Shown: positions 2,196-45,553 of the stretch, in pieces
How positions within the stretch are numbered: the first letter of the stretch is position 1
How the letters are laid out: each line of letters starts with the position of its first letter
From: Utricularia gibba
Taxonomy: Eukaryota; Streptophyta; Magnoliopsida; Lamiales; Lentibulariaceae
Direction: 5' to 3'
Assembly: GCA_002189035.1 (NCBI GenBank)
Contig: CM007989.1
Coordinates: forward strand, 4,805,001 to 4,869,000
DNA: 64,000 nt
Translations under genes and position numbers: made by a program
Notes under the pieces: model-generated
What the model was told of the DNA's origin: nothing
The model's database searches: none
What the model saw: the letters and a program-made list of their open reading frames with translations, nothing else

Positions 2196-5100
2196 ATGGC
2201 TACCCTCTCCCTCAAAGTTGGCAATTTTTTCACGATCAAACTCAGTTTCACTAACTATCTTCTTTGGCAAGAACAGGTCCTAGCTTTGGCTGAAAGTTAA
2301 AATCTTGTCAGCCATCTTACGGGTGAAATACAACCACCCTCCCAGTCTACAACCCCTTGACAGGACCCACAGGCGACGTCCCACCTCCACAAACCGCTCC
2401 CTACCTCTCTTGGTGGCAATCTGATTGTCTACTTTGAGGTTGGATTATTGGTACCCTTTCAGAAAATTCACGTGGCCTTGTAATAGCTCTAGAAACGTAC
2501 GCTGTTGTTTGAGCTGCACTCAAAGATGCTTATGCTGAAGATTCTGAGGAGCGTACCTTTGTACTTCAACACCAATTAACCTACCTACAAAAAACAGACT
2601 CAACATCCATGGAAGACCACCTCCGCCTCTTCAAACAATTGTGTGACTCTCTCACCACCATTGGAAAATCCGTTGCAAATGCTGAAAAAAAGTATCCCTT
2701 CTTCTTCATACCTTAGACCACTCTTATGACGCCTTTACCACTATCATGCTAAAACACCCAAGACCCACATATTGAGTTAATTCCTCAACTTCACAGCTAT
2801 GAGCTTTGACACAAATTTTCTCATCATTCTCCCTCATCCCATACTACCTATCAAGCAAACTGACAAAAACCTCAATCCAAAACCACTCGAAACACCTTCT
2901 CATCTATTGGTTGTGGCTTTCAAGCTCAAAGCCCCTCACACTAATCCACAAATTCACCAATAGCTAGCCAAGCTCGCCCTCCACCTTCGGGTAGACGTCA
3001 CATGACAACCGAACAACGTGAGTTGTATAAATATGAAACTTGTCAGATTTGTGACAATGCAGGACATGTTGCCAAAATTTGTTGGTACCTTCCTGATGGC
3101 TCGTTTGGTGCCTCTTCTGCCCATGCCTTCCAAGCGCTTCACTTGGATGGATCGGTGGGCCCCACTGAATGGGTGTCTGACACGAGAGTCTCTGCACGCA
3201 TGATAGATAACTCCTCTCTTCTCTCCTACATTACACCACCCGATGCCCATGATGCAGTTCTTATGTGTGATGGCTCTCCTCTACCCATCCTTGGTATGGG
3301 CAATGCCACTATCACCCAAAATTCTACTTCTATATTTTTAAAGAAGGTTTTGTATGTCCCTCAACTCACATCTAATCTTTTATCCGTTAGTCAACTTACA
3401 AGTCAATATCCTATTACTTGTGAATTTACTAACCATTTGTTTCTTGTTAAGGATCGTCTGACAGGCCAGATTCTAGTCATCGGGATACGAAGGGGTGACA
3501 TCTATGTTGTGTCTTCCTCTCCTAAGTGTTACCTTGCTACTCGTTCCAATAAAGCATATGTTGACTTATGGCATCAATGCTTAGAGCACTCTCATATTGC
3601 AACTATTCGTCATTTACACAAACAAAATTTAATTTGCATCTATGGCTCTTGCACTCATAAATTTTGCAGCAGTTGTCAACTTGTAAAACTTAGCAAACTT
3701 CCCTTTTTGCCTTCTAAAACCCCTACTAGTCGTCCCTTTCAGAAAATTCACTACGATTTATGGGGTCTTGCTTTGGTTTTATCTCTTCATAAATTCAAAT
3801 ACTATGCTTGTTTTGTTGATGATTTTACCAAATTTTTTTGATTTTTTCCTTTATGCCATAAAAGTGATTTTTCCAATATTTATTTTGATTTTGAAAATTA
3901 TGTGGATCGTCAATTTCAACAAAAAATTCAAGTTTTTCAATCCGATGATGGTGGTGAATTTCTTAATACTCGCTTAAGTGCTCATTTTTCAAAACACGGC
4001 ATTCTCCATCAACTCTCATGTCCTCATACCCCTGAACAAAATGGTGTGGCTGAACGTCGTCATCGCACCATTCATGAGATTGGAATGACCATGCTTTTTC
4101 ATAGTGCTACTCCTCTCTCTCTTTGGGTTGATGACTTCCGTACTACTGTTTGTATCCTAAATCGTGTTCCCACTTGTTCTGCAAAATTCACTTCCTTTCG
4201 AAATGCTTTATCATAAACCTCCCACTTTTGATGATCTTCGTGTCTTTGGTAGTCAATGTTTTCCATATCTTTGGACAGATTCTGTTAAAAATAAGGATCG
4301 GTGGAGCAATAAGGAAGGAAAAATAAGGTTGATGGAAAGTGGGATATTGTGAGTTGATTGAGTCTCCCATGGCGGCAAATTCCTGATTTTTTGGTAAGTG
4401 CAACATCGATGCAAATCAAGAGCAAATCAAGGAAGGAATCACCTGATTTATCTCAATCAAATCTTTGTTAGGAAAGTTCTAGGCTTATAAATAATGGTGT
4501 GTGCTGCATGTGTTTGTACATTGAAAAAATCAATCAAGTATTTTTCTTCTCAAACTTTTTCTTCTCCCAAACCCTGCTACGCCCAAAGGCCCTACACCTC
4601 CTACTGTTCCTGTTTCTTCCCTAGAATTCCTGCATACTAACAAATTTTCTCCCAAATCATTGCCTTATGTCTTTATTGGTTACAGTGAACATTACAAAGG
4701 CTATTGGTGTTATCATCCCTCGACACATCGGATCTTCACCTCACGCCTGTTGTCTTTGACGATTGGGTCCATTTACCTACTTCTTCCTCATCCTCATCCT
4801 CATGTGACTGGGCTTTCTTCACCTCTTTCATTGCCTTCATCTTCCCCTCCTTTACTAACTCTATCACCCATTCATTCCCTCTCCCCTCCGCCTGCACCGT
4901 CTCACCCAATGATGGCTCGCTCCCGTCATGGGATTCTCAAACCTAACCCAAGTTATCAAGCCTATGCTGCCCTTTTACCTTCTATACCACTCGAGCCCAA
5001 AACACTCTAGCAAGCCCTATCTCATCCCGGTTTGCGTAATGCCATGCAACTTGAACTTGATGCTCTACATCGTAATCACACATGGGTGCTTGTTACCCCT

Positions 5101-6500
5101 AACATGCATGTCATTGGTTCCAATTGGTTTTACAAAGCCAAGCTCAAGCCTGATGGTTCACTTGATCGCCTAAAAGCTCACCTAGTTGCTAAGGGGTACA
5201 ATCAAATTGATGGCGTAGACTACATAGAAACGTTCTCCCCAGTGATCCGGACTGCCACCATTCGCCTTGTTCTCACAATTGCCCTTCAGCATAGCTGGCC
5301 TATCCACCAACTTGATGTCACCAATGCCTTCTTCATGGTGATCTTCAAGAAACCATTTACATGGCTCAACTCCTAGGTACGCTTTATCCTCACCTCTTCA
5401 CCCATGTTTGCAAGCTCCAAAAGTCTTTATACGGTCTTAAGCAAGCCCCTCGTGCTTGGTTCAACAAGTTTAGCTCTTTTCTTCTTCACCTTGATTTTTA
5501 GTGCAGCTATGCTGACTCTTCTCTCTTTGTTCGTCATTCTCCTCTTGGCGTTGTTTACCTCCTCCTTTATGTTGATGACATGCTCTTAACAGCCAGTTCT
5601 GAGTCTCTTCTTCAATCACTTATCCTTGCTCTTGCCACTTAGTTTGCCTTAAAAGACTTGAGGTCTCCCCATCATTTTCTTGGTATTGAAATCCATCCCT
5701 CTCTGACTGATCTTCATCTTTCTCAGACTCACTATGCCCTTTCCATCCTTGAGAGGTTCAACATGCAAGATTGTCATCCTAAATCCCTGCCCTTGCCCCC
5801 TAAGGATACCTCTCCGATGGCTGGCCCCTGCCTGGTCCTCAACCCTATCGAGCTCTTATTGCCTCTCTTCAATACCTCACCTTTACTTGTCCTGACCTTC
5901 AATTCTCTGTCAACTACCTTTCTCAGTTTTTGCAACACCCCACCCACCATCTTCTCTCCCTTGCCCATTGTGTTCTTCGTTATGTTAAGAGTACTCTTAA
6001 CCATGGTGTCCTCCTATCCTCCCATCCATGCCCGAACCTCCACGGCTATGCTGATGCTGATTGGGCTACTTGCCCGTTCACTCGTCGTTCCATCAGTGAT
6101 TACTGCATCTTTGACAACACCCTTATTTCTTGGTGTTCTTTCAAGCAAAAGACTGTTTCTCGCTCCATCACTAAAGTTGAGTATCATTCGATGGCCCACA
6201 CTGCTGCAGAAAATTCATTGACTTTGTTACTTGTTGTGCGATCTTGGAGAATTGCCGTCTACTCCACCAACACTCTCATGTGACAACCTCAATGTTGTTC
6301 ATATGACTATGAATCCTGTTCTTCATTGCCGCAGTAAGCATATTGAGCTGGATTATCACTTTGTTCATCAAAAAGTCACTGAAGGTCTCTTAATCACCCG
6401 GCATATCCCTACCTCGTCTCAAGTGGCTGATCTATTTACAAACCCCTCACCAAGTCCATGTTGGTCAAGTTTCTTAGCAAACTCACCCTCTAACCACGGC
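2196..6500 (+). pseudogene. Broken copia gag-pol polyprotein
   Basis: Fragments run in copia order across several frames. Gag starts at the ATG at 2196 and soon hits stops. A CCHC zinc knuckle (C-x2-C-x4-H-x4-C) lies at about 3044-3085. The protease active site near 3175 is mutated: the expected D-S/T-G-A reads D-T-R-V. The integrase has its His/Cys zinc finger (about 3570-3690) and its catalytic core up to about 4215, with a stop at 3841. Reverse transcriptase spans about 5030-5780, including the YVDDM catalytic motif near 5565-5580. RNase H follows at about 6040-6450, with ADADWA and CDN-type motifs. Frameshifts separate most segments and an insertion interrupts pol near 4300. No complete product can be made. 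Confidence 0.9.
4294..4640 (+). mobile_element. LTR-like insertion inside copia pol
   Basis: The copia reading (…VKNK before, KFSPKS after) is interrupted by about 340 bp with no pol homology. The segment has LTR features: a TTATAAATA box near 4482 and a CT-rich tail (4543-4568). The most LTR-like part is about 4325-4570. I could not find a target duplication and the borders are approximate. It may be a solo LTR of another copia family, or a rearranged patch, since the last 70 bp look different. Confidence 0.45.
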
Positions 6501-6516
6501 CTCATTTGCGGGAGGC

Positions 6517-8179
6517 TGATGAACCAAAGAAGTGATGATAAACGGAAATTTCCTAATATCGTTGAAAATAAAAAAAGAAAATCCGTATCAAATAAATTTA
6601 TAATCCCTAATCTATACAAAATACAAATTTGGAAAACTTGTATAGTGGATATCGGGGTCGATCACGATGAGCTTGTGCTTGCTAAGTGTTTTAGTACATG
6701 CATAACTTCGGATAACAGTAGGTCTTAGTCTAAGCTCGGACTAACAGTGGTAAACAAATTCAGTAAACAAGGTAAGTAAGCAATATCAGGTTTCTACGCT
6801 AAGGTAACAGGTACTGGTTTTGACTTAGACTAATACGAGGACGCCTTAAGGGTCTGCGGGTGGTGTTATGCTAAGCTTCCTAACTTAATTTATTATCTTC
6901 CTACACTCACAACTTCAAATAACCTAAGTCTACCCAGGTCATTCATCATATTTTTGGCTTAAGCTAGTCTCCAATATCATAACCAACATTGCAATTAGGT
7001 CTACCCGCATGCAAGGCATATAGAACTAGGTCTACCCGGTTCTACTGGTTCTACCCTGGACTAACACCGACTGATCCTGTCTTGGTTTGTTGGTCTACCT
7101 CTAAACCAAGCATCTAAGTTGTGAAACTACTTGCTCCCCTCCTTAGGTCTACCCATGGTTTGTTAGGAACAAGAGTTAAGGAAGACAACTAAATTTCATC
7201 ATCAACCTAAACACATACCACCCACTTCTCCTTAAGGCATCCCTAAGACTCTAGCCACTCATGCTTTGGAAATAAAACACGATTTCATTCATATAAGTTG
7301 GCCAAAATGGCAGAAACATTGTAAACAAGTAAATGCAAAAAGTTGAAATGTTCAGAAAACTAGAAAGTAAATAAAGATTGTTCTTCCTCCCGTTAGCTAC
7401 TGTTCACCGCCCAGAACAGTAGCACTAGACTGGGCTCCGGTGCTATTCTTGGTGATGAAGGCCTCCCTTCCCCTTCTGGTTGGTGTTTTTCCCATTGGGG
7501 AAGAAGACCCCCTTGTGTCCCCCTCTCTATGTTCTTCCCGCTCTCCCCTTTTTCGAAAATAAATTTCCCATTTCCTTCACTCCATTGCACTGTTGCTGTC
7601 TGCTAGTACTGTTCCCGACCGCCAGCACTGTTCTCAGCCTGAACTTGCAGACTGCGGTGGCGGCAGAACAGTGCTCTTTGTCCTTCTCCAGATTTTGCGC
7701 CCCTTTTTTGCTTGTTTTACACGTTTGCAAGTCTGATTTTCAACTCATCTCCCTACTGAACTTACTGAAACATTAGTAACAAGAGTTGTGGACTAAATCA
7801 AAGGATTTAGTCCACTTTTCAACATAAGCACATAGGATTAACATAAACACCACTAAAGTATGAAAAACCACATTTATCTAACCTAAATCATGATAAAATA
7901 TAGCTATTTTGTGTTATGAATTTTAGGAAAAATGTGTGTTATCATTTATTCAGCGACAATCAAGGAACTAAATCAACGGTTACAATCAAGCGACAATCAA
8001 GGAACCAAATCAAGAAAACCAGATTCCTTGTTAAGAGATGATCCTGCACCCAAAGATCATGCTTTATTTCTTTTTTATTCATTAGACTCTCTCTTTAAAT
8101 ACTTCAGTTACAAACAAATAATGTAGATCTTCTTTGAATCTTGAATGAGAATATTTCCTCATCATTTAGCATTTCTTCA
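6517..8179 (+). repeat. 3' LTR of the copia element, split by a nested element
   Basis: The LTR begins TGATGAACC after a purine-rich tract (TTTGCGGGAGGC, 6505-6516). It is broken after 19 bp by the insert at 6536-7944 and resumes at about 7951, ending TTCTTCA at 8179. The resumed part has a short tandem duplication of an ACAATCAAGGAAC-type unit that the 5' LTR lacks. Confidence 0.85.
6536..7944. mobile_element. Family S1 copy A: solo-LTR-like element nested in the copia 3' LTR
   Basis: It begins TGATAAACG and ends GTGTTATCA, the same termini as the copies at 41841, 44170 and 51047. No protein domain is found inside. It reads in the same direction as the 51047 copy and opposite to those at 41841 and 44170. 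The target is the host LTR: AGTGA precedes it (6531-6535), and an AGCGA that aligns with this host sequence lies at 7952-7956, after 7 extra bases. The duplication is therefore imperfect. Open frames inside (for example around 7400-7780) are not convincing genes. Confidence 0.75.
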
Positions 8180-8184
8180 CCCAT

Positions 8185-8340
8185 GATAGTTTGATTTCTT
8201 TTCTTGCACGTTCCATTTGACTGGGGTATATAAGGTACTGTAAACTACTATACAATAATAGTTTTCTAATATAGAAATTTCAATTCATATGGAATCTATG
8301 ATAATACATGAATAATCAATGAAGAGTACTTTAAATTTTT
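8185..8340. other. Short unassigned spacer
   Basis: This is AT-rich DNA between the copia target duplication and the minus-strand copia relic. Nothing is recognised in it. Confidence 0.4.
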
Positions 8341-9620
8341 TGCTTACAAGTTATCCTAGTTGAGCATGTTATATGAAGTTGTTCGCATGTGAAACACATA
8401 TTTGATAATTATCTTTCTGTTCAATATCTCTAATTTGGTGTTTCCCTTTCCTAAGATAGCTATGCATACTCCATCAGTGATCTCTATTTTTTCATAGTAA
8501 TGAGATATAAGTTTTAAAGATAGAGATGTCATTAGAAATGTAATTAGATGATCCACTATCTAGAAGTCAAGTCAGCTTATTGATGAACTTTGTTGTAGTT
8601 GTCAAAATTGTAGTTTTTCTTATGGTTAAGATATCGATATAGTTAGAAGATATTTCATTTTCTTGTAAATTCTTAAAGTATATATTTACCAAAACTCTAA
8701 CAAATGTCTCTATGATTGACATTTAGGTTTCCATTCTTTGTAGTTAGTTATCTATGAATTTGGACGACAACTTCCTTTTTAAGGATGTATACGCACTCAT
8801 GATGCCTCTTTTTATTGTAGAAATCACATACATTTTTTAGATTCCACCAACATTCTTTTGATATATGCAAGTTGGGTATTTTACAAATTGAACATATTGT
8901 GAGGCTTTTACTTTTTACTTTTGCTTTATTTCCAGTCATGAATGCTGATGAATTGTATGCTCCTTTGTTGCATTTTTTTACTTTCAATGTCCCAAATGTC
9001 ATGGTCGCAAATGCCTTATCCTGCACATCTTGTTGTTTCTAATGAATTTCTATTTCCAATGTTTCTCCATTAATTCATTACTAATGAATCTTTTCAAACA
9101 ACATGTAGCAATCAAGGAAGGCACTGTGGAGTTGTAGGTATGATGTAGAGCATTTAATATTACATCCTTCAATTTGTCTTCATCAAGAATTTATCCTAAA
9201 AATTTCAATTTTCGAACTCCATTCTTTATCACATCAGCAGGTGTCTAGATGGAGTCATGTGGAGATAGTTGATTTGAGTGGTTCGGCTCTCTACCTTTCC
9301 AAGGTAGATTTTTTGAGCGGCATTCATGCTTTTTTAGATGTTTCACAATTCAGAATAATCTCATATGCTTCTTCAATAATGATTGCATCACGCATTGCAC
9401 ATATTCTGTTTTTTTTTTATTTGTAGACTTTGAGAACTGATGGATCATTGGTTCTACTTCATATAAGTAGTCCCATAAGTCTTGGTGCATTAAATGATTT
9501 TTCATTTTCTCTTTACAAATCAAATTTTTCTATGGATCTTTTCCATCAAATGTGGTTGGAGCTTGGAGACTCGAAGAAGTAGTATACATTCTTCAAGCAA
9601 TGAGTAGAAGTAACAAATTT
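8340..9620 (-). pseudogene. Decayed copia gag-protease relic
   Basis: On the minus strand, scattered frames read like copia Gag and protease. Near 9540-9590 there is a Gag-like FDGKDP-type stretch. A zinc-knuckle-like segment lies at about 8845-8905 (C-x2-C, H, C, slightly off spacing), followed by a second Cys/His cluster. The part at 8356-8556 resembles the region after the copia protease active site (DHLT… to a DVL-YVP-like end). No integrase or RT follows, so the 3' half is missing. Both LTRs are unrecognised. The similarity is weak and rests on motif order. Confidence 0.5.
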
Positions 9621-9892
9621 TGCAAGTGAAGAAGGCAAGAATGGACTTGTCTTCACATCTGATTCACCCAAAGGAGTTTAGCATCTCTCTGACATGCAAA
9701 GAGAAAGCTTATAAAGAAAAATTTGAGTATTATAGATAGACATGTTTAGCAAATGGGGTAGATCAACCAGTTCAACACAATCATTTCTATTTCTATTTAT
9801 AGTGTTTAGCAGAATTCCACATTCAAATGAATATTAGCTAAGTTAACATTGTTCTATCAGATTTGTTGTCCTCAAACATAAATTAGTCACTT

Positions 9893-10375
9893 TGTTGAAG
9901 CCCAATCAAAATCTCACATAATTACTGCATCTCAATGTCCTATCACTCTAACCCCCAATCTCAATATTCTTTTTCCTAATTGTTGTGTCGCGCTCGCTTG
10001 ACTTGAGATGAATGTTCTCATCGTGTTCTCATCATGCACGAGCATTCTCTCTATGCGGGAAAATGCCTTGCCTTCCATGTGGGAGCCATTACCTTGACTC
10101 GGGTACCTGCGGTTGGCTTTGGTGGGCTCTTCATTTGCCCTAGTGAACACACGCAAGCACAATCTACAATGCCTCTTTGTGGTCGACATGCAATCTCTTC
10201 CAGTTCCAGAGCCTTGTTAGTATGCGAGCATTTCTGCTTGCGGATCTAATTATAATACAACAGTTGGTATAAATATTGGGTTTGTGTATTGAGTAGAATA
10301 ATAGTAGATTTTAGAAGACCTTTATATGTATCTCAAAATATCAATAAAAAAGATACACGATTTTCTCCAATTCTT
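9893..10375 (+). mobile_element. Probable copia-type solo LTR
   Basis: The segment starts TGTTGAAG and has late LTR signals in order: a TATAAATA box near 10269 and AATAAA near 10343, about 75 bp apart. A perfect 5-bp repeat CACTT flanks it (9888-9892 and 10376-10380). The right terminus as defined by that repeat is not CA, so either the end has mutated or the duplication is a coincidence. Small open frames inside, such as 10034-10249, are probably not genes. Confidence 0.5.
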
Positions 10376-10442
10376 CACTTAGCCCTTTAAGAGCAATGGA
10401 GTTGATAAGTAACCCAAAATCGGGTTCAGTTCCCAGGTTTAG

Positions 10443-10718
10443 CTAGCAGGATTTCCCTCTGGAATCCACTGGTTTAGTGGACATGTAGAGATTGTAAATG
10501 CTCTTGTACCTCTGCTTCTTCATTGCTCTGACCTCCTCCGTGACCGTGACGCCATGCTCACCTCCTCTTTTACTGCTCCTGTCCACCGCCGCCGCCGTGT
10601 GTTCGATATCCTCGTCTCCAAACAACTCCATCAACATCCCTGCAACAGCCCTTCTGAAACCCTCGTCGAGACACCTCAGTTCCCCAACTCCGGATTGCGT
10701 TCGACGCTCGCGAGCCAT
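10443..10718 (-). CDS. Small hydrophilic protein of unknown function (91 aa)
   Basis: This is an uninterrupted 91-codon frame from ATG (10716-10718) to TAG (10443-10445). It is markedly GC-richer than its surroundings and has gene-like codon usage. The product is charged and soluble, with no signal peptide or membrane segment. A basic and tyrosine-rich C-terminal stretch (KKQRYKSIYNLYMS, about residues 67-80) and a Leu/Met helix near residues 24-34 stand out. An AT-rich region followed by a GC-rich possible 5' UTR lies upstream (10720-10930). An out-of-frame ATG sits 17 bases before the chosen start. A possible acceptor (TTTACAG near 10747) means it could instead be the last exon of a longer gene. 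I do not recognise the family. Confidence 0.55.
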   Translation of the reverse strand: MARERRTQSGVGELRCLDEGFRRAVAGMLMELFGDEDIEHTAAAVDRSSKRGGEHGVTVTEEVRAMKKQRYKSIYNLYMSTKPVDSRGKSC

Positions 10719-10949
10719 TCCGATCGACCGGTCATGGGCTGCCTGTAAACGAAGAGTTGTGATGATCTGAGCTGAGCTCCAGCCGCCCCTTGTGGTTGTC
10801 TCTTTTATCTTGCTTTGAAAAGCGCGTTGTGGAAAGCGGGGGCACAGGGAGAGAAGCTTCCGTGTTGGTGACCTGAAGCGACGTGGAAAGGACCAGCGGC
10901 GTCTCTTTATCAAATGTTTATTCATTAAATAATTATAAAACAAACTTGT

Positions 10950-12360
10950 CAAAGCGCAAATAGGAATAGAAAATGACTGGTGGGCAATCAGCTGAGCAGT
11001 CTGACTTCTCTTAGTCCTTTTTCCATTTAAATTATTTTCTTTTAAAAAAACTGCAAATAAATGGCCTTTGACTTTTGGAATCACATTGTCAACCATTAGT
11101 TGCCTAGGTTTCAGAATTTATATCCAAATGAGTGTTATTTTTGTAGTGAATAACGCACATTTTAAAATGGTCTTATTGACTAACCAGTCACATTGATGAA
11201 TCTGATCCATTGGTGAAAGATGGTTTGGTATTTTACTATAACAAAAATAATAAAATAATATAAATGTTGACCGATCAAACATAACTTATTCGATTTGATA
11301 TAAAAAAAATAATGTATATTGGCAACATGCTGAAATTAAATTTTCTAATACAGATGTAATGTTTGTTTTTAGACAACCATCTTTGAATTTTTTATCATAA
11401 TTTTGAGACAATAAAAAAGAAGATAGTAAGTAGCTTCGGTAATAGTGCACCCACATAAAAGTAAGTACTCTTTTGTTAGCATATGAAAGGCTGTTTTGCA
11501 TTAAATAAAATATAATAACCTTCCATTTGGGAAGAAGCAATATTTAAAACTATAGATTACTTATCAATGTATTTTATTTTTATTTACTACCTAGTTCATG
11601 ATAAAACATAAATTCATGTTCCAGATGAGTTTAATTAATCATATCATATGAAAACACAACCTTTGTTTGAAAATGAATTCCGCACTTGTAAGATTAATTC
11701 TATTCATGTAAAATTGTTTCTACATTCCAAATATATACAATAGTGATTTTACAATCAATTCACTTCTCACAAAAGTATGGAAGTATAGTTATTTTGAGAC
11801 AATTAATTTTTGAAAGCTAACTTGATATGTGAATACAATTATAATCATTCTTTTTATAAGAAATTACAATTAATACGCATAAATTATTCATCGCATTTGT
11901 AATAATAGAATAAACGCTTTACTTTATAATGTTTAGTTTTCTATCTTGCTTTTATAATATTAATATACATAGATTTAAACTGTCGTAATAATATAATTTA
12001 TGAATTGTTAAAATATGGTTACTAATAAATATAGATAAATATGTTATTTACGTATAAAAATCAATTTTCAACATATATCAATTATTATTGCTAAAATTGT
12101 CAATTTTAATATAATTAATTCTCTAGCGATTTTTTCAAACTTGCTTGCAATATTATCTCTTCAACTATCAGTTTGTTTTTTTTATTTTTATCAACAAATT
12201 TATTGTTTATGTTGAATATTTCATAAAAAAATTCTATCAATTTTTTAGGTTATAACAAAAAAACATATTTTTTAAAATTTTGAACCATGGAAATTTTGAT
12301 AAATTTTATATAATATTGCATATTTTATATAAAAATGGATATTTCAACCTTGGGCACAAA
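10950..12360. other. AT-rich intergenic DNA
   Basis: I see no coding signal, RNA gene or clear element. The minus frame at 11286-11540 is AT-driven and resembles nothing known. Base composition becomes very AT-rich from about 11,640 to 12,340. Confidence 0.4.
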
Positions 12361-27834: not shown

Positions 27835-27985
27835 TCGATTAATTGTGTAGTCACTGCAATCGAGTAATTGTGGTGACCTACCTATTTTCAAATACTATTT
27901 ATATAGTCACCGCAATCGATTCATTGCAATGACTATGTAAATAATGTTTTAAAATACGTAAGTCAGTGCAATCGTTTGATTGCTT
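27835..27985. repeat. Palindromic tandem repeat, cluster 1
   Basis: Units of roughly 60 bp contain GTCACTGCAATCGAGTAATTG-like cores. One core at about 27906-27933 reads GTCACCGCAATCGATTCATTG and on to CAATGAC, an imperfect inverted repeat. Between cores lies an AAATANTATTTA spacer. The same units recur at 29850-30056. Confidence 0.6.
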
Positions 27986-28826
27986 TGGGACTCTTAGGAG
28001 ATGTATACTTATCACTAAACATGCTTATACAAGCCATAAGTCAAACAATTAACACATAAGATTTAGGTCTATCTGGATTCTTGTTTTTCCCCAAATTTTT
28101 GGTCTAACTCTAATTATGGTTGTTAATATGAGTTTCACTACTTACCCTTCCTAGATCTATACTAATTTTTTATGAAGTGGTGTGATTTATTGTTGATTAA
28201 GTCTAAAGATTGACTAGCACAAAACTCCCCTTTTCACCCGAAGTCACCCCTAAATGCTTAACCACTCATGCTTAAGGTAAACGAAAATACAAAAGAAATC
28301 ATCATCCATATTGTACTCATCTCACAGTCGACTACCAGAAAATAAAAAAACAGGAAATTTAAAAGTTCAACAGAAAACTAAAAACGTCACTAACTACTCT
28401 TAGCTAAGAGTAGTATTTCTTGAAAACATAAAATAGTCTTCAAATATCAGCTTCGTTCTTGGTTCGTCTTCCTCCTAATTCCTCCCATAAACCTTCTCCA
28501 TAAAGAATGTCGCGTGTGTCCAATGTGAGTGATATTTTTATCTCTCCCTCTTGTACCTCTTTTTGTCCAAAATTCAACTTTTTCATTCATTTGATTTTGT
28601 GTGTACTCCTTTTGAGACTTCTGCATCATCTTTTGTCACTACATTGTTGTTATCCGACTTTTTAGGATTAATGTTACGACATGTGCTACATTGATCAATG
28701 AAAACTATTAGAAGATTGAATTATACAGTACTATGCGTAAAAATATGGAATTATACAGTAAAACTTAATTTTTGTTGCACAATATGAATGTTTTTCATAT
28801 ACTCAATCACTCAAAAATATGTGTTA
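27986..28826. mobile_element. Family S1 copy D: truncated solo-LTR-like fragment
   Basis: This matches the inner and right part of the 51047-52223 copy, from the GATGTATACTTATCACTAAACA segment to the AATATGTGTTA end. The left 290 bp are missing, and the junction lies exactly where the palindromic repeat cluster ends. The right end has lost the terminal TCA. A minus frame at 28447-28629 is not convincing. Confidence 0.7.
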
Positions 28827-30056: not shown

Positions 30057-30990
30057 ATGGTTCAAAATCCAAAACCGAGATTTACGAATTGAATCGTAAC
30101 CGAAATTGTGGTTACTGTTCGTAGGTGCTTTATAGCCATCCATATGAATCCTTATGGATGTCTAGAATTGAAATTTTTAATAAATATTAAATATTTAAAA
30201 AATTGATTTTTATTCTAAATAAAAATAATATATACATACGTAAATTTATTTTTTTCAATTATATTTCTAATAAATTATTTTTAGTTTAACTCTTTAATAT
30301 TTCTGAGAAAATATTTTTTTATTATTAAAAAGTTAATATATTTAAAGAATTTAATCTTACAGTTCACAGAAAAATGAAAAATAATAATGTTATATTAACA
30401 TAATCTGTAAAATAAATAATTTGGTAATAGTTTAATATAATAATATGAAATAAATAAATTTGATATAAGTTCAATATATAATAAATAATTTGGTATATGT
30501 TTAATATATAATATAATACGAAATAAGTTAATTTAACTAAAAATTAATAAATATTTTTATCGTCCATTTTGTAATTCGTATGATTGTTTTTTATGTTCAA
30601 TTTTGTAATTAATATAAAAAACATGATTCAGTTATTAAAAATTTGAAGCGATACCTACAAATTAGAGGATTTCGTAGCACGTCAAAAAAAATGATACGGA
30701 ATATTTTTCTAGTAACGGCACCTACGAAATAAGTACTTTGGTAGGATTCAGCCATAATAATACGAAATAATTTAATTTTATTGGAAAAAAAAAATATTGT
30801 TGTTATTTCTTTTGTAATTTGTATGTTTGCTTTTATGTTTAATTTTATAATTTTCGTAAAAAATGTCAATTTGTTATTAGAAAATTAAGCGACATTTGCA
30901 AAATAATTAGATTGTCACTATTGAAATATAATACTACAAAATATGTCAAATCTTTTGAAAAAAAAAAATACAACATTGTTACTGACTCTT
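30057..30990. other. AT-rich DNA with a small tandem repeat
   Basis: A unit of about 37 bp (AAATAAATAATTTGGTATATG followed by TTTAATATATAA) is repeated about three times at 30408-30535. The motif CACCTACGAAATA near 30720 recalls motifs at 32882 and 33505 upstream of the neighbouring transposon-like gene. No gene is seen. Confidence 0.45.
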
Positions 30991-30991
30991 T

Positions 30992-32442
30992 TCATTTTAT
31001 TCCCTTTCCTTTGGGTTTGCCTCTACCTATTCCTTTATCTTTGCTTGTGCCCGCAGTTGTAGAACGTATGTTTCTTTGTTGAGCCATTGCTATAATATCG
31101 TTTTCATTCAATTGAGCTTGCAATCTGTGAAGTTGTAATTCTTCCTTTAACACCTGTATTTTTTCATTCAGCTTCATTATTTCCAATTGAAAGTTGATAG
31201 ATTTTTGTTGTCCAGCAATCAATTCATTGACTTTCATCTTCAATTCAACCTTGTATACAGATTGGTGTGCTACCAAGTCATCTATTCTGTTTTTGTTTTT
31301 CTGAATCTGAAACTTCAGATCTGTTATCTATAGAAGAAAAAAAAACTAAATTAGAAAACATAAAAAAACAACTATCACATTTATTAGCAAAATTAGTTTC
31401 ATTTTTATTACCTCATTTTCCATTCGTTGAATGTGTTTAAATTGGTTTAAAATGAGTTCTTTGTCATGTTGGCGTGCAACCGAGAGCTCCTCATTAATAT
31501 ACATTTCAGCTTCCTCATGAATAGGCACTTCATTCTTCTCATCTCCATTTTCTTGTTCAGAATTCTCCTATACAAAAAATTTTTTATATTGCAAACCTTA
31601 TTTATTTGAAGAGAAAATTAAAAATTTAAATAATATTCCTACTTTATTTACCTGTTGTTCATTGCTATTGATGTTTAGCTTAATGGGTTGTTCATAAACA
31701 ACAAGCTGATGATGATTTCGCCTTGATATTGGTGTAGACCGCCACTCAACGACACCATGAATGTTTCGACATGCTGTCATAGTGTTAAATAAATAAGTAA
31801 AATAACATATTTGAAAAATAATGTAAATTAACAAGACTTACTTCGAATTTGAGCAGACTTCGGGATGATGTCTTCAATCATATATCTCTTTGATTACAAA
31901 AGACTTTTTAATGCATGTTTAGTTTCCTCATTCACATTGATTTTTTTCAATACGAGAATTTATAACATCATCCCCTGGATATGTCAATGGATAATGCCTT
32001 GAGATTTCAAAAGATGAAGGTGGTACAATCCATAAAAGAAGTTTATGCTATCGTGCCACAGTTCTAGGTATGTTTTGATAAAATCTATTATTTGGTAATT
32101 CTTGAAAATACCATGTTCCAGTAGCAGCTTTTTTTGGAACAGATAGTGCAAAAAATTTGACAATGAAGTTTCCACATATTCTTCTTCACACAAGTGTAAG
32201 AAAGCTAAGATAATACTATAGGAAGATGGTGCTAAAAACCCAATAGGCAATCTCAAGTAGTTGAGCACATCAAGAGCAAATGGATGAATAGGTAGCCTAA
32301 GACCAGCATCAAATGTTTTATGAGACACAAGCCAAGCATTGGGATGTTCATGAGGGGGATTGGCATCAAGAGGTGTGTTTTGCGGAGCAGGAATTGTCAA
32401 CCAATCGGTTGGGATGAAATATTTAACACGAAATCTATCCAT
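30992..32442 (-). pseudogene. Transposon-derived gene: gypsy-type transposon domain plus coiled coil
   Basis: Four minus-strand exons can be read. Exon 1 (32442 to about 31851) encodes an N-terminal domain with a GLRLPIHPFALDVLNYL motif, as in the plant 'putative gypsy-type transposon' domain (Pfam Transposase_28). A stop at 31984, a frameshift and another stop damage its last third. Exon 2 (about 31780-31652) and exon 3 (about 31568-31411) are polar. Exon 4 (about 31328-30992) is a long coiled coil with heptad Leu/Ile/Lys, ending in a basic GKPKGKGIK tail. Introns have GT-AG borders and T-rich 3' ends. Exons 2-4 are intact. It may be a retroelement accessory gene that has become solitary. 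Confidence 0.6.
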
Positions 32443-32779
32443 TATCTAATCAATAAAGGATATATAATAATAATGAAATTCTAAAAATAAGGAAATGAAA
32501 AACAACAAAACAAACATGATATTAACAATGAAAAATGCAGCTAAACCCAACTAAATACATAATTATATGAATTTTTAATAACTAAACCCAACTTAATATA
32601 TAACGCATACTGCAGCAACAAATGCATAGAATACATTTCACAAAAATAATGTAAGTTGCAACAACAAGATTACCCGATTTTAAGCCGACGAATTTTTGGT
32701 TTTCAGAAGCGCGACGACCCTGATAAGAAGAGACTTTGTATGTAGCAAAAGGTGATGTAAACTAGGTAGGTTTGTGCAC

Positions 32780-34120
32780 TTATATTGTGGACGCCAACTT
32801 TTTCAGAAAAACATATTGCATAGAATAATTCACATCCATATATGTCTAAATCAATTGTTTAAAATAATTAAAAAAATTGCAGCACCTACAAAATACTCAT
32901 TGTTTGATGGGCCGTCTCAAATTTCAAATTTTCAGTATTTTAAAAATGATAAACAAAAAAGGTTATGCATATATTTCATCGACATCTATGCATTACGTGT
33001 GTTTGTATGTACCTTCTCAAAATCCAACGATGTTTACATTTTCTTAAAAAATGAACAGAATTTATTTCACATTTCATTGTTCTAAACCCATAATTAAGCT
33101 ACACATTTTAAATTTTAGTAGTTTTTGTTCATAGTAATGAAGTTTACCATCACCAAAATTGCAACGATAAAAATAATAAAAATCACGTTTCTTTCCAAAT
33201 ATATGTTCAATATTTTTTTTATAAAACATTATAATATTTGACATTTAAATTAGAGAACACGATACATTAGTGTCTAATGTAAATGTGGATGATTATTTAT
33301 AAACTTAGTGTCATTATGTTGCCATTGAATTATACATTTGTAATTTCAGATTTTTGAACCAATTTTTTTAAATAAAAGTTCGATACAAAAAATATTTTGT
33401 ATCTAATGGACGTCAATTTTAATTGTAAATTATTTAATAAATAATTTACATCCGTAAGTACATTTGAGACTGTTTCCATAAATTGTTTTTGTCGCCCCTA
33501 CAAAACGCAATGTTACATATGTGCCATCCAAAATTTCACATTTGCAACATATTAAAAAGGCGGGAATATTTAAGATATTTTATTTACCCTAAACCCTAAA
33601 ACCCTGAAAACCCTAAACCACGAAGTGGAAATTTATGTTTTCTTTAATACAAATGGTCCTTGATGATGACGTTTATCAGCATAAATGTTGTAATGCGCTG
33701 AATATTCAAGGTATGATATAAAAATTAAGTTTTATACACAAGTATATGTATATTGTATCTCAAATGTTTTCCTTTACTAAACGTCACAACATTTGAGATT
33801 AAGTTAGATAAGAACTTACATTCGTATCATATTTTTGCTAAAATTGTTTTAAATTAGAATGTGATTGTACGTCAACATTACACTTATAATTATGTGTTTT
33901 AGCATAAAATTATTTAAAATAATTACGCACGAAAAAATATTTTTTAAAATATGGATGCCAATTGTAATTGGAAATCATTTAATAAACAATTAACATCCGT
34001 AATCAAATTTAATAGTATTTCAATATTTTGGTGGCCTCTACAAGAAACATTTTTATGTATTTCCCGTCCCTTTAAATTAATTTAAAAAATCAAAATAAGC
34101 GCCATACAGTATAAATAAGT
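32780..34120. repeat. Degenerate tandem repeat, period about 0.55-0.62 kb, three copies
   Basis: A block reading GTGGACGCCAA, then about 45 bp later ACATCC, then 55-60 bp later CCTACAAAA-like, occurs near 32787, 33408 and 33952. Copies 2 and 3 match best: both read ATTTAATAAA, then AATT and ACATCCGTAA. The array lies between the two transposon-like gene remnants. A cluster of CCCTAAA/ACCCTAAAA telomere-like motifs sits at 33586-33619. Confidence 0.5.
33586..33619 (+). repeat. Interstitial telomere-like (CCCTAAA) motif cluster
   Basis: Four imperfect CCCTAAA units in tandem (ACCCTAAACCCTAAAACCCTG and on). Such telo-boxes occur in plant promoters and transposon ends. Here it lies upstream of the 32442 start on the minus strand, about 1.1 kb away. 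Confidence 0.6.
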
Positions 34121-34261
34121 TGTTTCGTAGGTATTGTCAGAAATTTATCCATTTATTTTAAAATAAATTCAATGGCATAATTAAAATGTGACATTTCGTA
34201 AGTGTATGTCTAATTGAAAATAAATGGGACGGCTCTTTAGAAATCAGAGACTCCTTCTAAC

Positions 34262-35440
34262 AATCTTGTAGGCATACATAATACTCCCATAAGGCATGTC
34301 CCTAACGTATGGAAGGCTGGCCTATTCGATTGTCATTAATATAATTTAGAACATCATTAGGATACTGTAACCCTTCAAGGAAAGTCCGCATCTCACCATC
34401 AACATTGAGTGATGGATCATCCCTATTAGTTGTGATGTATAACCAAGTGTATGCAAGAGTATACTAGCAAAAAATGACTTACCGGATTTTTCATTGATTT
34501 GTGAGGTGAATCATCAATTAATAAGGTATTGTGACGGTCATATCTTGTATTCAATCCATTATTGACAACCCATACACGACTCAACTACTTAATGTAAACC
34601 GTGGTGCTAGGATTATTGTGAACACGTACGCCGGTGTCCGTCGTCATGGTTTGGTCCCATACGAAAATGAGATTGTCAAATAATGAAGGTGGAAAGACCC
34701 ATTTAGTGATTGCTTGTAGTTGCTCCCTACAAAATAAATCACTTACAAGTGTTTGCACCAATTATAAATACCAACAAAAAACAAAATGCAACATACGTAC
34801 CCCCACGGGATGACCATAAGACTACATCAAAATTATCCAAACACCACCTAATAAAATCACGGGCATGTGGACGTAGAAAGACTGCATAATTTGCATCAAA
34901 AGTTACCTATGATATCTCACAAATCATGAATACACATAACATCCAAAAATAAGTATTGTGTTAACGTACTTGATCGGCCATATATGATTTTATCTGGAGG
35001 GATTCGTGACCTTGATGCTCCAGCCCTGTAAACGATGTCTTCTAGCACACCATTTACATCCAAGATAATCAGATTTCGTTGAGGCTCAGAGGCACTAAAA
35101 GGAGGTGTGGTATATACCCAACAACTCTCATGCCAATCCAACTTGTAGTAAAGTTCTTCATTCTCCTTTGTTATAAATTCAAGTCTGTCATCAACATCAT
35201 CAGGACCATGTGTGAGCTCATCCCCTTCAACATCATTCCCATCTTGTATCCTCTCATTCATAGACAAGTCTTCATTCTTTTGGAAGACTCGATGATTTTT
35301 CAACACACCACACCAATAGCGTTTTGTCCCCGTGCATCCACAAATGGTGGTAAAATGTCAACAAAACTCCTTTGCATACTTGAGAAGAGGAGAATAGCAT
35401 CTTGTATATCCCTCTTGGACAAGGTATCAAATCCTACAAT
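34262..35440 (-). pseudogene. FCP1/NLI-type HAD phosphatase, broken
   Basis: Minus-strand exons read in the order expected for an FCP1-homology (NLI-interacting factor) domain. An acidic leader (35306 on) leads to LIILDVNGVLED near 35045-35080, the HAD motif I with Asn in place of the second Asp. Next is RPHARDFIRWCLDNFDVVLWSSR (about 34801-34880), then an exon with WDQTMTTDTG and the LLIDDSP motif (about 34490-34730). A final exon has FLEGLQYPNDV and GQPSIR (about 34262-34450). A TAG at 34585-34587 and unclear junctions mark decay. An exon at about 35310-35435 in another frame may link it to the transposon-like domain upstream. Plants have an FCP1-like subfamily with D-V-N at motif I, which is why I favour that group. 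Confidence 0.68.
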
Positions 35441-35639
35441 AAAAGTAAATTTATTAATAATATATTCAACAAAAATGTTGAATAAGAATATTCAACATGA
35501 TAAATGTAAAAATATTCAAAAAGGGTATTAAAAGAGTGGATTAAAAAAAACACTCAATAATAATACCTTCAATAAAAAAATTCAATACAAATATGGAATA
35601 TTTTTATTCATATTTCTTCTAACAATACAAAGCAAGATT

Positions 35640-36140
35640 TACCTTTCGCCTTGCCTACTTCGCTCGAATTAGTGTAAATTTGAGGAAATTTGGTTTCCAT
35701 TGGAGGACATATTCAAACAAAACTTGTCCACTATTCTTCAAATCCTCTTCTCACATCGTTCACTAGCACCAACCCTTTTATCCCTTTTAAGGTGTAGTGG
35801 TTATTGTTTACAGTCCTAGAGCATACACTTACAGCAAAAAAATAGCGAAGTTCCACATCAAGACATAACTCCTCACAAATACTAACAAAGGCCAACACAT
35901 ATGAGATAGATCTTGGAGTCAAATGAGATAAAAGAATCTCTAAACATTCTAATATTTCTTCTAAAAAGGACAATAATGGTAAGCGCAAACCACAACGAAA
36001 ATGTTCCGTGCTTTAGGCAAATCCCATTGGACCCACACGGTTTGAAATTTCATTCTCAATCAACTCATCTGGTTCTTTGCCCCAAATCTCATATTCATTC
36101 GGTATCAAGAATCTAGTTCTCAATTTTTCAGAAGTGTGCA
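35640..36140 (-). pseudogene. Second copy of the gypsy-type transposon domain
   Basis: From an ATG at about 36140 the minus strand reads FLIPNEYEIWGKEPDEL, then HFRCGLRLPLLSFLEEILECL and SISYVLAFVSICEEL. This aligns with FIPTDWL, GLRLPIHPFALDVLNYL and LAFLHLCEEE of the 32442 copy, in the same spacing. Stops at 36013-36015 and two near 35715-35730 break it. It ends at a possible donor (AAAG then GTAAAT, about 35643) whose partner acceptor (TTGTAG, about 35436) leads in frame into an exon that runs toward the phosphatase exons. Confidence 0.6.
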
Positions 36141-36144
36141 TCTA

Positions 36145-36830
36145 AGAACACCCATAGGAATTGTATAAAAATTCAAACTACAATAATTCAATATGGTACT
36201 ACAAATTGGAACATAGATCAGTAACCCATGGTGGAAAATAAATCACTTACCTTATTTAATTTAAATAACACTCCAAGTAGGTGATGGGACTGTGGGGGGT
36301 TCCGGTCGCTTTCGGCTGGAGGGGGGGGAGGGGAAAGAGGTAGGAAAATTTTCTTATCAGATGGGTGGTGATTAGGGTTGTCTTACTTGACAATGTGGGG
36401 AGTGGGGTGGTGATGTGTAGCACTGTATATGGGTGCGTGGGGATTTGGTTTAATACACCAAATCATAAGATAATGATTAAGCGCAATGATATCCCTACTT
36501 TCGTAGGTTGTCGGTAATAGCTTCCGTTGTTTTCAGACAAGGTGTGTGCCGCTTGTTTGAATCGATGCGAACCCATCGTGTAATTAATACTCCAATTTTG
36601 AGGCACCCAGAATCGCTAATGTGGGCGAATGGCACAAGAAATACAAAATTAGGCACCCCTACCCGAAATTTGGGGATTGCGCAATCTTTGAAAGTATTCT
36701 TAATTTTCATAAATATAAAAATATGTTAGTGCATTAATTGGAATATAAAAATCTGAAAATGAAATGATTTTATATATCCTAATTACTAAAAAATTATTTC
36801 AATAAATAAAGAATATTTGTCTATCGCTTA
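36145..36830. other. Unassigned DNA with a G-rich patch
   Basis: The stretch 36285-36440 is G-rich on the plus strand (several runs of G). Overlapping frames at 36495-36730 on both strands are not convincing. Shared CACCCAGAATCGCTAATGTGGG-like wording near 36603 recalls units of the adjacent minisatellite. Confidence 0.35.
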
Positions 36831-36834
36831 GACC

Positions 36835-37245
36835 ATTTTCTATACACCCATATTGCCTCGTGTGGGTGTCTGGAAAGAGAGTCGGATATCCTTTTCTAGG
36901 CACCTACAAGGCCTTGTGTGGGTGTCTTGAAAGAGTGGGTAAGGCCATTTCCAGGCGCCCACTTCTGTTATACGGGTGCCTGGTAAGGAGTATTTGAGAC
37001 AGTTTTCTAGATACCCTCTTCCCTAATGTCGGTGCCTCGGGAGAGTGTACAAGAAAGATTGTTGGACGCCACCTACAAAATAATGCATTGTGTGGGTGTA
37101 TGGGAAGTGTGATTTCCAGGCACCCACTTTGGTTATATGGGTGCCTGGGAAGGAGTATATGAGACATTTTTCCAGACACCCTCTTCCCTAATGTGGGTGC
37201 CTTGGAAGGATGTTTGCGAGTCTGCGATCGAATTCCAGGCACCCA
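36835..37245. repeat. Hairpin-forming minisatellite, unit about 57 bp with a higher-order period of about 167 bp
   Basis: About seven units carry CAGGCACCCAC and TGGGTGCCTGG motifs, which are reverse complements, so each junction can form a hairpin. A three-unit block starting at about 36951 (CCAGGCGCCCACTT) recurs at about 37116 (CCAGGCACCCACTT), including TAAGGAGTAT/GAAGGAGTAT and CCCTCTTCCCTAATGT. Long minus-strand frames through it arise from the repeat and are not genes. Confidence 0.75.
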
Positions 37246-37353
37246 CTTTTAATTAAAAACATGAATACAACATTTTCTTATAAAGTAATATTATTTCATG
37301 GAACACTAAATGTTTCCAAATTAGGAGTCTTCAATTTCATCTTCACTTGAACT

Positions 37354-37920
37354 CTAGGATAAGGTTTGATTTCTTTTCACAGCCTCCAGCCAATCCTTTA
37401 GACAAATGTATGCCTCTAGAGTCTCTACGTTCAATCTGGAGCGCTTGTGATTAAGAACTCGTCCTCCTGTACTAAACGCACTTTCAGATGCCACTGTAGA
37501 TGCTGAAGATGTTAGAAGATCTTTGGCCATTCTAGCCAAGATATGGTAAGTAGTAGAATTTGTCTTCCACCAATCCAATATATCAAAGTTGTCATCATCA
37601 ATACACTTAACAATAGGAGTATTATTGTAAAGTGTAAGTTGGTCAACAGAGTTTAGTGAGGATGATGAAGAGGAAGACACAAATGAACTATGCTTCCTAT
37701 GAATAATGTCCATTGGATTGCGACTACCAAGTGTCGAATTGTTACATGCTTTAGGAATATGAACACTAGGATCACTATATTTTCTCAATGGTGAGCTACA
37801 TGAAAATATTTTGATAGATCTTTCACAAGGCTATCAATAACATCTTTATCCCCATCCATCTCATAAATATACATGCAAGCATAACTGAGCACTATATGGT
37901 CTCAACCATCCTGAAAATAG
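37354..37920 (-). pseudogene. hAT-family transposase, C-terminal fragment
   Basis: The minus frame 37788-37354 ends with the hAT dimerisation domain: FDILDWWKTN, then ILARMAKDLL, the ASTVASESAFSTGGRVL core, and SRLNVETLEAYICLKDWL. Upstream to about 37920 another frame continues the protein (MDGDKDVIDSLVKDLSKYF-like), separated by a frameshift. The BED zinc finger and catalytic core are absent and no terminal repeats were found. The family is the zinc-finger BED / RICESLEEPER type of plants. Confidence 0.85.
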
Positions 37921-41840: not shown

Positions 41841-43085
41841 TGATAACACAAAAACTTTCATGTTTTAGGATAAGATAATCATAGCTTTTTAATTATGCTT
41901 TCGTTGCTTATTTTATAGTTTTATTTATTTCTATATAACTTATGAAATATGTGATTTTTATGTGTTAGTATGCTAAATCCTTTTATATAACCAACCCAAT
42001 GTTCTAATCCAATTGTGAGTCTATCACCAAGTCTTAAAATAATGGAAAGACACAAAGGTTTCATGCAAGTCAGCATGTAGTAGGAGGAGCAAAAGGCAAT
42101 GGGTGCACTTCTCTCACACCTGTATGCAACTCAAGAGCAGGACCAGTAGTGGTGTCAAAGATTGTACTTGCTTTGGGAGTAAGAAAGAAGAAAAAAATAT
42201 GGAGAGAGAATTAAAAAAGTGAGCTTGAGCAAGAGCGACACATAGAAGGCTTCTCGCAAAAAAAGCCTCCTCACCTACTAGAACACTACTACCATCTAGT
42301 TTAGCGTTATTATTCCATACTTTAAACTATAGCTAACGTGAATTAGAACAATTCTTTACTTCATTTTTGTTTGCTGAATGTTTTTTTTTTGTTTCTATGA
42401 TTGACTTTCTCACAATGTTTCTTTTACTTTAGGTTTTTAATCTTAATGACATTACGTTTTATCCTCCAAGTATGAGTAGTTAAAACTTAGGAATATCTTA
42501 ATGTGTAGAATGGTGATATGGAGCTAGGGTTAATAATGTATATGATTTTTGTTTTTAATTTTTTTTTTATCATTCAATAGGTAGACCTTAGGGGAGAATA
42601 AGTGACTTCACAATTCATATGTTTGATTTAGAGGTAGATCAATAAATCAAGGCGAGAGCAGTAGGTATTAGTCCAAAGTAGAAATATGATGAATGACCTG
42701 GGTAGACTTCGTTGTTTGAAGTTGTAAGTATAAGGATATAGTAAATTAAATTAGGTATATTAATACCACGTCACTTGCATTGTCTTAAGGCATCTTAGTA
42801 TCATCCTATACTCAAAACTAACACTTTTTATTTCCTACTTTGCAACTTGACTTTACTTAATGAGTTTTTCTATTACTATTAGTTTAAGCTTAGATTAAGA
42901 ACAACGTTTATTCTGAATTCTGCATATGCTAAAACATTTTGCAAGCATCAGCTCCTTGTGATCGACCCTAAATTCCATTTTACATTTTAGGTTTAATTTG
43001 TATCATGTGAGGATTATGATTTATAAATTTATTTGATACAAAGATTTCATTTATTGTAATGATTTTAGGAAAATTCCGTTTATCA
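41841..43085. mobile_element. Family S1 copy B: solo-LTR-like element (1245 bp)
   Basis: It begins TGATAACAC and ends GTTTATCA, the reverse of copies A and E. It is flanked by GTCTA (41836-41840) and ATCTA (43086-43090), a 5-bp duplication with one change. It shares the CTCCTTGTGATCGACCC segment near its right end and GGTAGAC motifs with the other copies. No coding domain. Confidence 0.8.
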
Positions 43086-43090
43086 ATCTA

Positions 43091-44169: not shown

Positions 44170-45548
44170 TGATAACACACATTTCACTAGTGTTTTTAAG
44201 TTATAAAATTGATATGTTTAATGATAGAATTAGGAATTTTAATTATGATTTTAATATTTTGTTAACTGTAGTGTTATTTGTATTTTTATGCATAATATAC
44301 ATGATTTAATCTATATTATGATTTCTAATATTCTTCTAAGTGTTAGCAGCAACATTGTGGATCACATTTTGCAAGTTTATGAGCACAATTCGAAGGGGCA
44401 CAAGACACAAGGAGAAGACATGATTAATATTCAGCCGTCTACAATCTGCAGGTTCAAGCAGGAATAGTATAGATGTCAGGAACAATGGACTGACTTTGGA
44501 AAATAAAAAAAGAGATGTGAAGATATTTTTGAAGAGGGGAGAAGGAGGAGAACACTATCAGACACCAAGAGGGGGGGGGGGAGGAGGGGAGGAAGAATAT
44601 AGAGGAAGGAAGACAAAGACGATTTCTCTAGAAGGAAGACCAAAGACTTGAAGAATAACATCAAAGACTCAATTCAACACTACTGTTCCAGGCAGTGAAT
44701 AGTAGTAGATTGCGAACAAAACACTCAAGTTTATCTTTAGTTTGATGGATATTTCGTTACTTTGATTGTTGTTTTACAATGTCTTTGTTATTCTCTTCAG
44801 TTTATGTTAATGATATCATACTTTATCTTTCATATATGAGTAGCTAAAACATTAGAGATGTCTTAAGGTAAAGTATGGTGGCGTGGATCTAGAATTAATA
44901 ATGAAATTTTTGTTCGTTTTTTAGTTCTTGTTTCTGTGATTCCATGGGTAGACCTAAGAAGGGAAAAAAGTAACTTTGCAACTAAGATGCTTGATTTAGA
45001 GGTAGACCAACAAGCCAAGACGAGAGCATTAGATATTAGTCCAGAGTAGAACCAATAGAACCGGATAGACTTAGTGCTATATACTTTGTATGCGAATAGA
45101 CCTAATTGCAATATTGGTAATGATATTGAGGACTACCTTAACTGAAATATGATGAATGACATGAATAGACTTAGGTTGTTTAAAGTTGTAAGCATAGAAA
45201 CATAAAGAATTAAATTAGGCATCTTAGCACCACACTACCTAAAGACCCTTAAGGCATCTTCGCATTAGTCTATGTTAAATCTAGTAATTGTTACTTTCAG
45301 CGTTGAGACCTAATTTTTTTTATTGAACTTGCTTACCTCGTTTAGTTCGAGCTTGGACTAAGACCACTATTATTCCGAATTTTACATCTGCAAAAACACT
45401 TTGCAAGCACAAGCTCCTTGTGATCGACCCCGAAATCCAATATATAAGTTTTCTAAATTTGTATTTTGTATAGATTAATACTTATAAATTTATTTGATAC
45501 GAAAATTTTATTTTATTGTAATGACATTGCTAAAATTTTTATTTATCA
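44170..45548. mobile_element. Family S1 copy C: solo-LTR-like element (1379 bp)
   Basis: It begins TGATAACACACATTT and ends TTTATCA. It is flanked by a perfect ATAAT duplication (44165-44169 and 45549-45553). A CTACTGTTC-to-GAATAGTAG motif (44680-44706) and the GCTCCTTGTGATCGACCCC segment (about 45413) also occur, inverted, in copy A. A G-run lies near 44571-44581. No coding domain. Confidence 0.85.
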
Positions 45549-45553
45549 ATAAT

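Follow-up and report, generated by a model that had tools for sequence, protein, structure and literature searches.

A fusion of T28 and FCP1-like domains carried by hAT, PIF/Harbinger and MULE elements of Utricularia gibba

The described systems closest to the gene reported here include: (i) VANC of the Arabidopsis VANDAL (MULE) elements, a DNA-transposon accessory gene that lies beside the transposase gene, has as targets short motifs often found in tandem repeats of non-coding element regions (PMC5735166) and, in its KIU form, bears a captured Ulp1 domain (PMC13317346), (ii) the Retand LTR-retrotransposon, in which an antisense ORF has a transposase 28 domain (pfam04195) (PMC7264820), and (iii) the retroelements of bdelloid rotifers, several types of which have captured ORFs in common (PMC5408684).

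The U. gibba gene resembles VANC in its place beside the transposase gene of a DNA transposon, in the short-motif repeats of the non-coding element parts and in having a host-type enzyme domain, as some VANC forms have captured one too. It differs in that the domains are T28 (PF04195, "Transposase_28") and an FCP1-like domain, DUF1985 is not reported, and the carriers are hAT and PIF/Harbinger as well as MULE elements. The comparison extends only to how the two may work; anti-silencing by sequence-specific demethylation of its own family is not shown here. Retand likewise has T28 in a mobile-element accessory ORF, but is an LTR retrotransposon, whereas the present carriers are terminal-inverted-repeat DNA transposons in which T28 is fused to a phosphatase-like domain. 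In the rotifers, as here, one and the same enzyme-like accessory ORF accompanies elements of more than one class; those elements, however, are retroelements and the ORFs are a GDSL esterase and a DEDDy exonuclease, whereas the carriers described here are DNA transposons of three superfamilies. The literature searched, which did not extend to subscription papers or Repbase, yielded no description of a phosphatase-bearing accessory gene common to three superfamilies of DNA transposons.

The window copy and its hAT carrier

The window, a 64,000-nucleotide stretch of the genome (G000:C1:4805001-4869000), carries on its minus strand a five-exon gene that joins T28 to an FCP1-like phosphatase domain (Table 1), the last exon ending at about 34262. 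The T28 match spans 35731-36012 (-) with an E value of 2.1e-9, its 37.9 bits lying above the PF04195 cut-off of 26.2. The donor of exon 1 is the GT straight after ...GCGAAAG, the acceptor ...TTGTAG precedes 35433, and the phase 1 intron between them leaves the reading in frame across the junction (GKAK-G/FDTLSK). Exon 3 reads FLRPHARDFIRWC..LWSS and, taken alone, falls just below the PF03031 cut-off of 21.8 bits. Exon 4 carries WDQ and LLIDDSP. The spliced protein of a second hAT family, group B, scores 32.6 bits to PF03031 and exceeds both Pfam cut-offs; PF04195 and PF03031 are the only families that Pfam reports in this full protein, with no DUF1985. A PDB sequence search gave nothing beyond a weak match to UBLCP1 (E 0.043), and the structure predicted for T28 (pLDDT 47.5) is too poor to show a DNA-binding fold. 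The window copy itself is broken, with three stops in exon 1 (GFA(stop)ST, EE(stop)WTS and V(stop)ICPP), a frameshift in exon 2, a single in-frame TAG in exon 4 and a TAG near 34302 that ends exon 5 early.

Table 1. Features of the fusion gene and its carrier in the window
Feature	Coordinates	Strand	Evidence
Remnant of group-A hAT element	30118..37781	-	blastn of full element G000:C213:3031118-3042338 against the window
hAT transposase C-terminal exon (dimerisation domain)	37354..37830	-	PF05699, E 6.4e-25
Non-coding motif-rich stretch, AGGCACC/GGTGCCT, candidate target array	36597..37245	-	motif count
Fusion gene exon 1: T28 domain (PF04195)	35643..36140	-	PF04195, 37.9 bits; donor common to other readable families
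Exon 2: linker, coiled-coil-like stretch, motif I LDVNG	34970..35433	-	122 genomic matches; acceptor seen in all element groups
Exon 3: FLRPHARDFIRWCLDNFDVVLWSSR (motif II)	34801..34881	-	PF03031, 20.5 bits, E 4.2e-4
Exon 4: WDQ ... LLIDDSPHKSMKNP (motifs III/IV)	34483..34726	-	sequence; matches across groups; donor read
Exon 5: C-terminal part (..TFLEGL..)	34262..34422	-	sequence; aligned to last exon of group-B gene
Second T28 gene of group-A element, N-terminal exon	31984..32445	-	PF04195, E 6.6e-11, 42.7 bits
Coiled-coil-like ORF downstream of second T28 exon	30992..31327	-	open reading frame conserved in C213

The carrier is an 11.2 kb hAT element (group A) that was defined by comparing 20-kb flanks and is common to several copies, with the order hAT transposase, motif-rich stretch, T28-FCP1 gene and second T28 gene. 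Its ends are shown by two copies: the C213 copy (3031118-3042338) is complete (TIR TAGAGGTGG/CCACCACTA; TSD CGTTAAGG, 8/8), and the C142 copy lacks the transposase and retains its TIRs (TSD ATTGTGTT, 8/8). Both have ends of the form TAGAGGTGG...CTA with an 8-bp target duplication on both sides, which meets the criterion for hAT. Several ORFs of the C304 copy match zf-BED (PF02892) and the hAT RNase-H fold (PF14372) in Pfam. The second T28 gene is collinear in C213, C142, C304 and C414, and a hAT dimerisation exon lies 1.1-3.2 kb upstream on the same strand in many close copies of the fusion gene.

The window remnant covers element positions 3125-11083 at 86-90% identity, its homology beginning at 37781, within the dimerisation exon. 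It lacks the 5' 3.1 kb, which include the N-terminal part of the transposase and the 5' TIR, as well as some 140 bp at the 3' end, the TIR there included. No TIR or TSD is present on this doubly truncated copy, and its assignment to hAT rests on homology to the complete copies. As anatomy, the window feature is very likely a truncated, decayed copy from a hAT family that encodes a BED-finger transposase and accessory genes, one of them the T28-FCP1 fusion. The coiled-coil-like ORF probably supplies the second T28 gene with its C-terminal part; its joining to the N-terminal exon is inferred.

An earlier note, made from sequence alone, had placed a T28 exon, donor, acceptor and FCP1-like exons on the minus strand of 34262-36140 and judged the copy to be broken. 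These claims held, with correct coordinates; the span held only in part, as the feature is larger and adds the dimerisation exon upstream and the second T28 gene downstream of the fusion gene. The gypsy-type label failed. A gypsy/LTR retrotransposon, as the name of PF04195 would have it, is rejected because the carriers end in TIRs and have hAT, PIF or MULE transposases.

Two further repeats are recorded in the window. Four plant telomere-type units (ACCCTAAA) lie within the element remnant at 33586-33617. The stretches 42387-43087 and 44774-45551 are two diverged copies of one repeat, which also interrupts the second T28 gene region of the C304 copy and adjoins the D451 copy.

Genome-wide association and further carriers

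The junction of T28 to FCP1 is no local accident. Across the 100-Mb assembly searched, the FCP1 exon has 122 matches and T28 at least 150. T28 lies on the same strand and no more than 1.5 kb upstream at 83 of the 111 listed FCP1-like places, and downstream of or opposite FCP1 at none of the 111, a co-orientation that rules out a chance junction. The position of the T28/FCP1 intron/exon junction is identical in four element types. The earlier note had suggested looking for other copies with both domains adjacent and for shared termini and target duplications around them; many such copies exist, and both the termini and the duplications were found. Most of the diverged T28-FCP1 copies remain untyped by carrier element, eight of them having been fetched.

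Three further families, a second hAT, a PIF/Harbinger and a MULE, are shown to harbour the five-exon fusion gene as well, and each of them has distinct ends and a transposase of its own. Group B, the second hAT family (TIR TAGAGGTGGGCACG; TSDs 7/8), has its transposase convergent with the fusion gene and 38% identical to that of group A. Group C is PIF/Harbinger, with a DDE_Tnp_4 (PF13359) transposase and, in three copies, TIR GGCCTCGTTTGTTAG at TTA(A), which satisfies the 3-bp target criterion of this superfamily; the candidate for a second, Myb/SANT-type ORF in group C is a reverse-strand ORF without a Pfam match. In C2 (L042), a lone further PIF-like copy, the ends read GGGCGCGTTTGGTTG and TAG flanks both of them, judged by eye only. 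Group D is MULE by a PF10551 match of 29.6 bits (cut-off 27.6), with TSDs of only 7/9 and 8/9 and long, imperfect TIRs. The arrangement is shared by at least two insertions in every group except C2; thus, chance nesting is unlikely. Apart from the B and C arrays and inserted copies of other repeats, no long DNA similarity was seen between carrier groups outside the coding exons.

Certain copies show later events of their own. At L040, a group-B hAT is inserted into a group-C PIF/Harbinger element, one carrier of the fusion gene thus lying within another. In one MULE copy, the stretch L045 3624-4515 belongs to an insertion of about 1.2 kb just upstream of the T28 part, probably another transposon, and window positions 27985-28826 are about 76% similar to it. 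A group-B copy (L039 5145-5222) has two TGA stops at expected Arg codons, as CpG decay of methylated DNA would give.

Conservation of the gene and its host relatives

Selection on both halves of the gene is shown by comparisons between groups, in which every exon has pS of 0.70-0.84 and pN of 0.23-0.48 (0.71-0.75 in a shuffled-codon control). Synonymous sites are saturated while the T28 and FCP1 halves are both conserved; thus, the fusion gene has been kept by selection. The sample is biased in that only detectably similar copies can be compared, yet saturation with a conserved protein still requires long constraint. Close copies give dN/dS of about 0.4-0.8, indicating that most copies decay neutrally.

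In a tree, every group that has two or more members forms a clade with 100/100 support, and relations between groups are weak. Neither a single origin within hAT (p-AU 0.19) nor one within PIF (0.51) is rejected, and the number and direction of transfers are therefore undetermined. The fusion gene is very likely an ancient accessory cassette carried by hAT, PIF/Harbinger and MULE elements.

Four plant HAD/FCP1-like host genes (L053-L056, LDVNGLLAD motif) share the homologous domain with the transposon protein, read LDVNG or LDLNG at the position of motif I and have introns at the same positions, after GR, WSSR and NP. Unlike the transposon gene, they have no T28 found beside them, are low in copy number and contain extra introns; identity to the transposon protein is mostly about 30-55% over aligned pieces and is higher only at motif I. 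They were retrieved with a probe sequence modelled on this plant family, the matches themselves being the data. Their DxN motif and matching introns indicate the capture of an intron-containing gene from the host HAD family, which supports the earlier proposal of a mobile element that captured a phosphatase gene. Two other sources are rejected: C451:1554139 is really another decayed T28-FCP1 copy, and the host PF03031 genes L049, L050 and L052, with DLNET or DLDET motifs, are too distant.

The DVNG of the window copy was correctly noted to lack the second Asp, but this is not a peculiarity of the transposon copies, nor a sign of decay, as the host HAD family has the same motif. Since all four host genes have DxN, the second Asp was most likely lost before capture. 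The catalytic DxDx(T/V) motif is thus absent from transposon copies and host relatives, and the nucleophile Asp of motif I is present in all listed copies but one. With the second Asp missing and no activity data, catalysis is doubtful, and an active phosphatase is not claimed.

Repeat arrays, a proposed mechanism and its rivals

The candidate targets are arrays in the non-coding parts of the elements, near the fusion gene and often internal rather than at element ends. Enrichment of a (C)CAGGCACC motif, often palindromic, is shown in groups A, B and C. Within the window, 9 of the 11 copies of AGGCACC/GGTGCCT fall in the motif-rich stretch, partly as inverted pairs; the remnant has 9 against 0.24 expected, and the remaining 56 kb of the window has 2 against about 2.6. 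Counts per element are 8-11 in group A, 12-13 in B and 5 in C (0.2-0.7 expected), and neither the element flanks nor the host genes exceed chance. The arrays of B and C consist of palindromic tandem units (e.g., CCAGGCACCGCAATGGCATGTTTGCGGTGCCTGG in a 56-bp unit, 8.7 copies). A 34-bp palindrome has 45 genomic matches and its reversed control none, and, of 20 palindrome clusters, 13 have a T28 or FCP1 match no more than 3 kb away, where 1.1% would be expected from the share of the genome that lies so close to such a match.

These counts carry reservations. Proximity of arrays to the gene is partly expected, as the arrays travel inside the elements; AGGCACC was chosen after looking, inspection and k-mer ranking having been applied to the very elements that later supplied its counts; and the arrays of B and C, possibly of shared descent, may not be independent. 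The search yielded no motif shared by all five groups: the repeats of C2 and D differ from AGGCACC, and the MULE arrays on either side of the gene (L045 2786-3453 and 6487-7197) are built on CACTGTAAT, not CAGGCACC. What is informative is that the motif and the fusion gene are both shared by elements whose transposases differ.

The best overall explanation, favoured by a modest margin, is an ancient T28-FCP1 accessory cassette that acts on its element in the manner of VANC. The protein is proposed to bind the motif repeats, often palindromic, that lie in non-coding DNA of the element encoding it, DNA binding being inferred; the phosphatase-like domain would engage the RNA polymerase II transcription or silencing machinery, its target also inferred; and the element may thereby stay transcribable, an effect that is again inferred. 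Taken by itself, this mechanism of array binding with action on transcription or silencing falls slightly on the doubtful side, there being no expression, binding or methylation data. Against it, the motif is absent in C2 and D, and the arrays could serve the transposase instead.

Two rival explanations remain possible. In the first, the protein aids transposition, by binding the ends or shaping the transpososome, and the arrays are binding sites of the transposase type. The location of the arrays in non-coding element parts is in favour, and arrays to which an element's own proteins bind are frequent in DNA transposons. By contrast, the motif is common to two hAT families and a PIF family, whose transposases differ, and the arrays are not concentrated at the ends. 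In the second, the phosphatase-like domain regulates transcription without array targeting, for example by acting generally on the C-terminal domain of polymerase II. The FCP1/NIF similarity and the nearly invariant nucleophile Asp support this reading; the Asn that replaces the second Asp of DxD in transposon copies and host family, and the lack of activity data, count against it.

Passive capture of a host phosphatase fragment (Pack-TYPE or transduplication), with no role for the element, is very unlikely. Gene capture is common among plant DNA transposons (PMC13317346, PMC8903248), and most copies read are damaged, the close ones with the dN/dS given above. However, both halves are conserved despite saturated synonymous sites, and the gene is multi-exon and lies in transposase-encoding elements across three superfamilies. 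An unrelated T28 insertion that split one ordinary phosphatase gene, the outcome that would have refuted the earlier proposal, has the window read alone as its sole support and is all but excluded by the 83 of 111 places alike, the shared junction position in four element types and the host genes without T28.

The VANC-like cassette may also be read more boldly. T28-FCP1 and the palindromic arrays could form a portable anti-silencing cassette, a gene with its cognate target, exchanged among hAT, PIF/Harbinger and MULE elements, with the host phosphatase-like domain as effector; this is put forward only as a possibility. Most of what is known of accessory genes for escape from silencing in plant transposons comes from VANDAL/MULE elements. 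A selected accessory gene present in three superfamilies, with a phosphatase-like domain captured from the host and a candidate target motif, would open two questions to direct test: do unrelated transposons exchange modules for evading defence, and are phosphatases of the transcription machinery among the targets of the contest between transposon and host?
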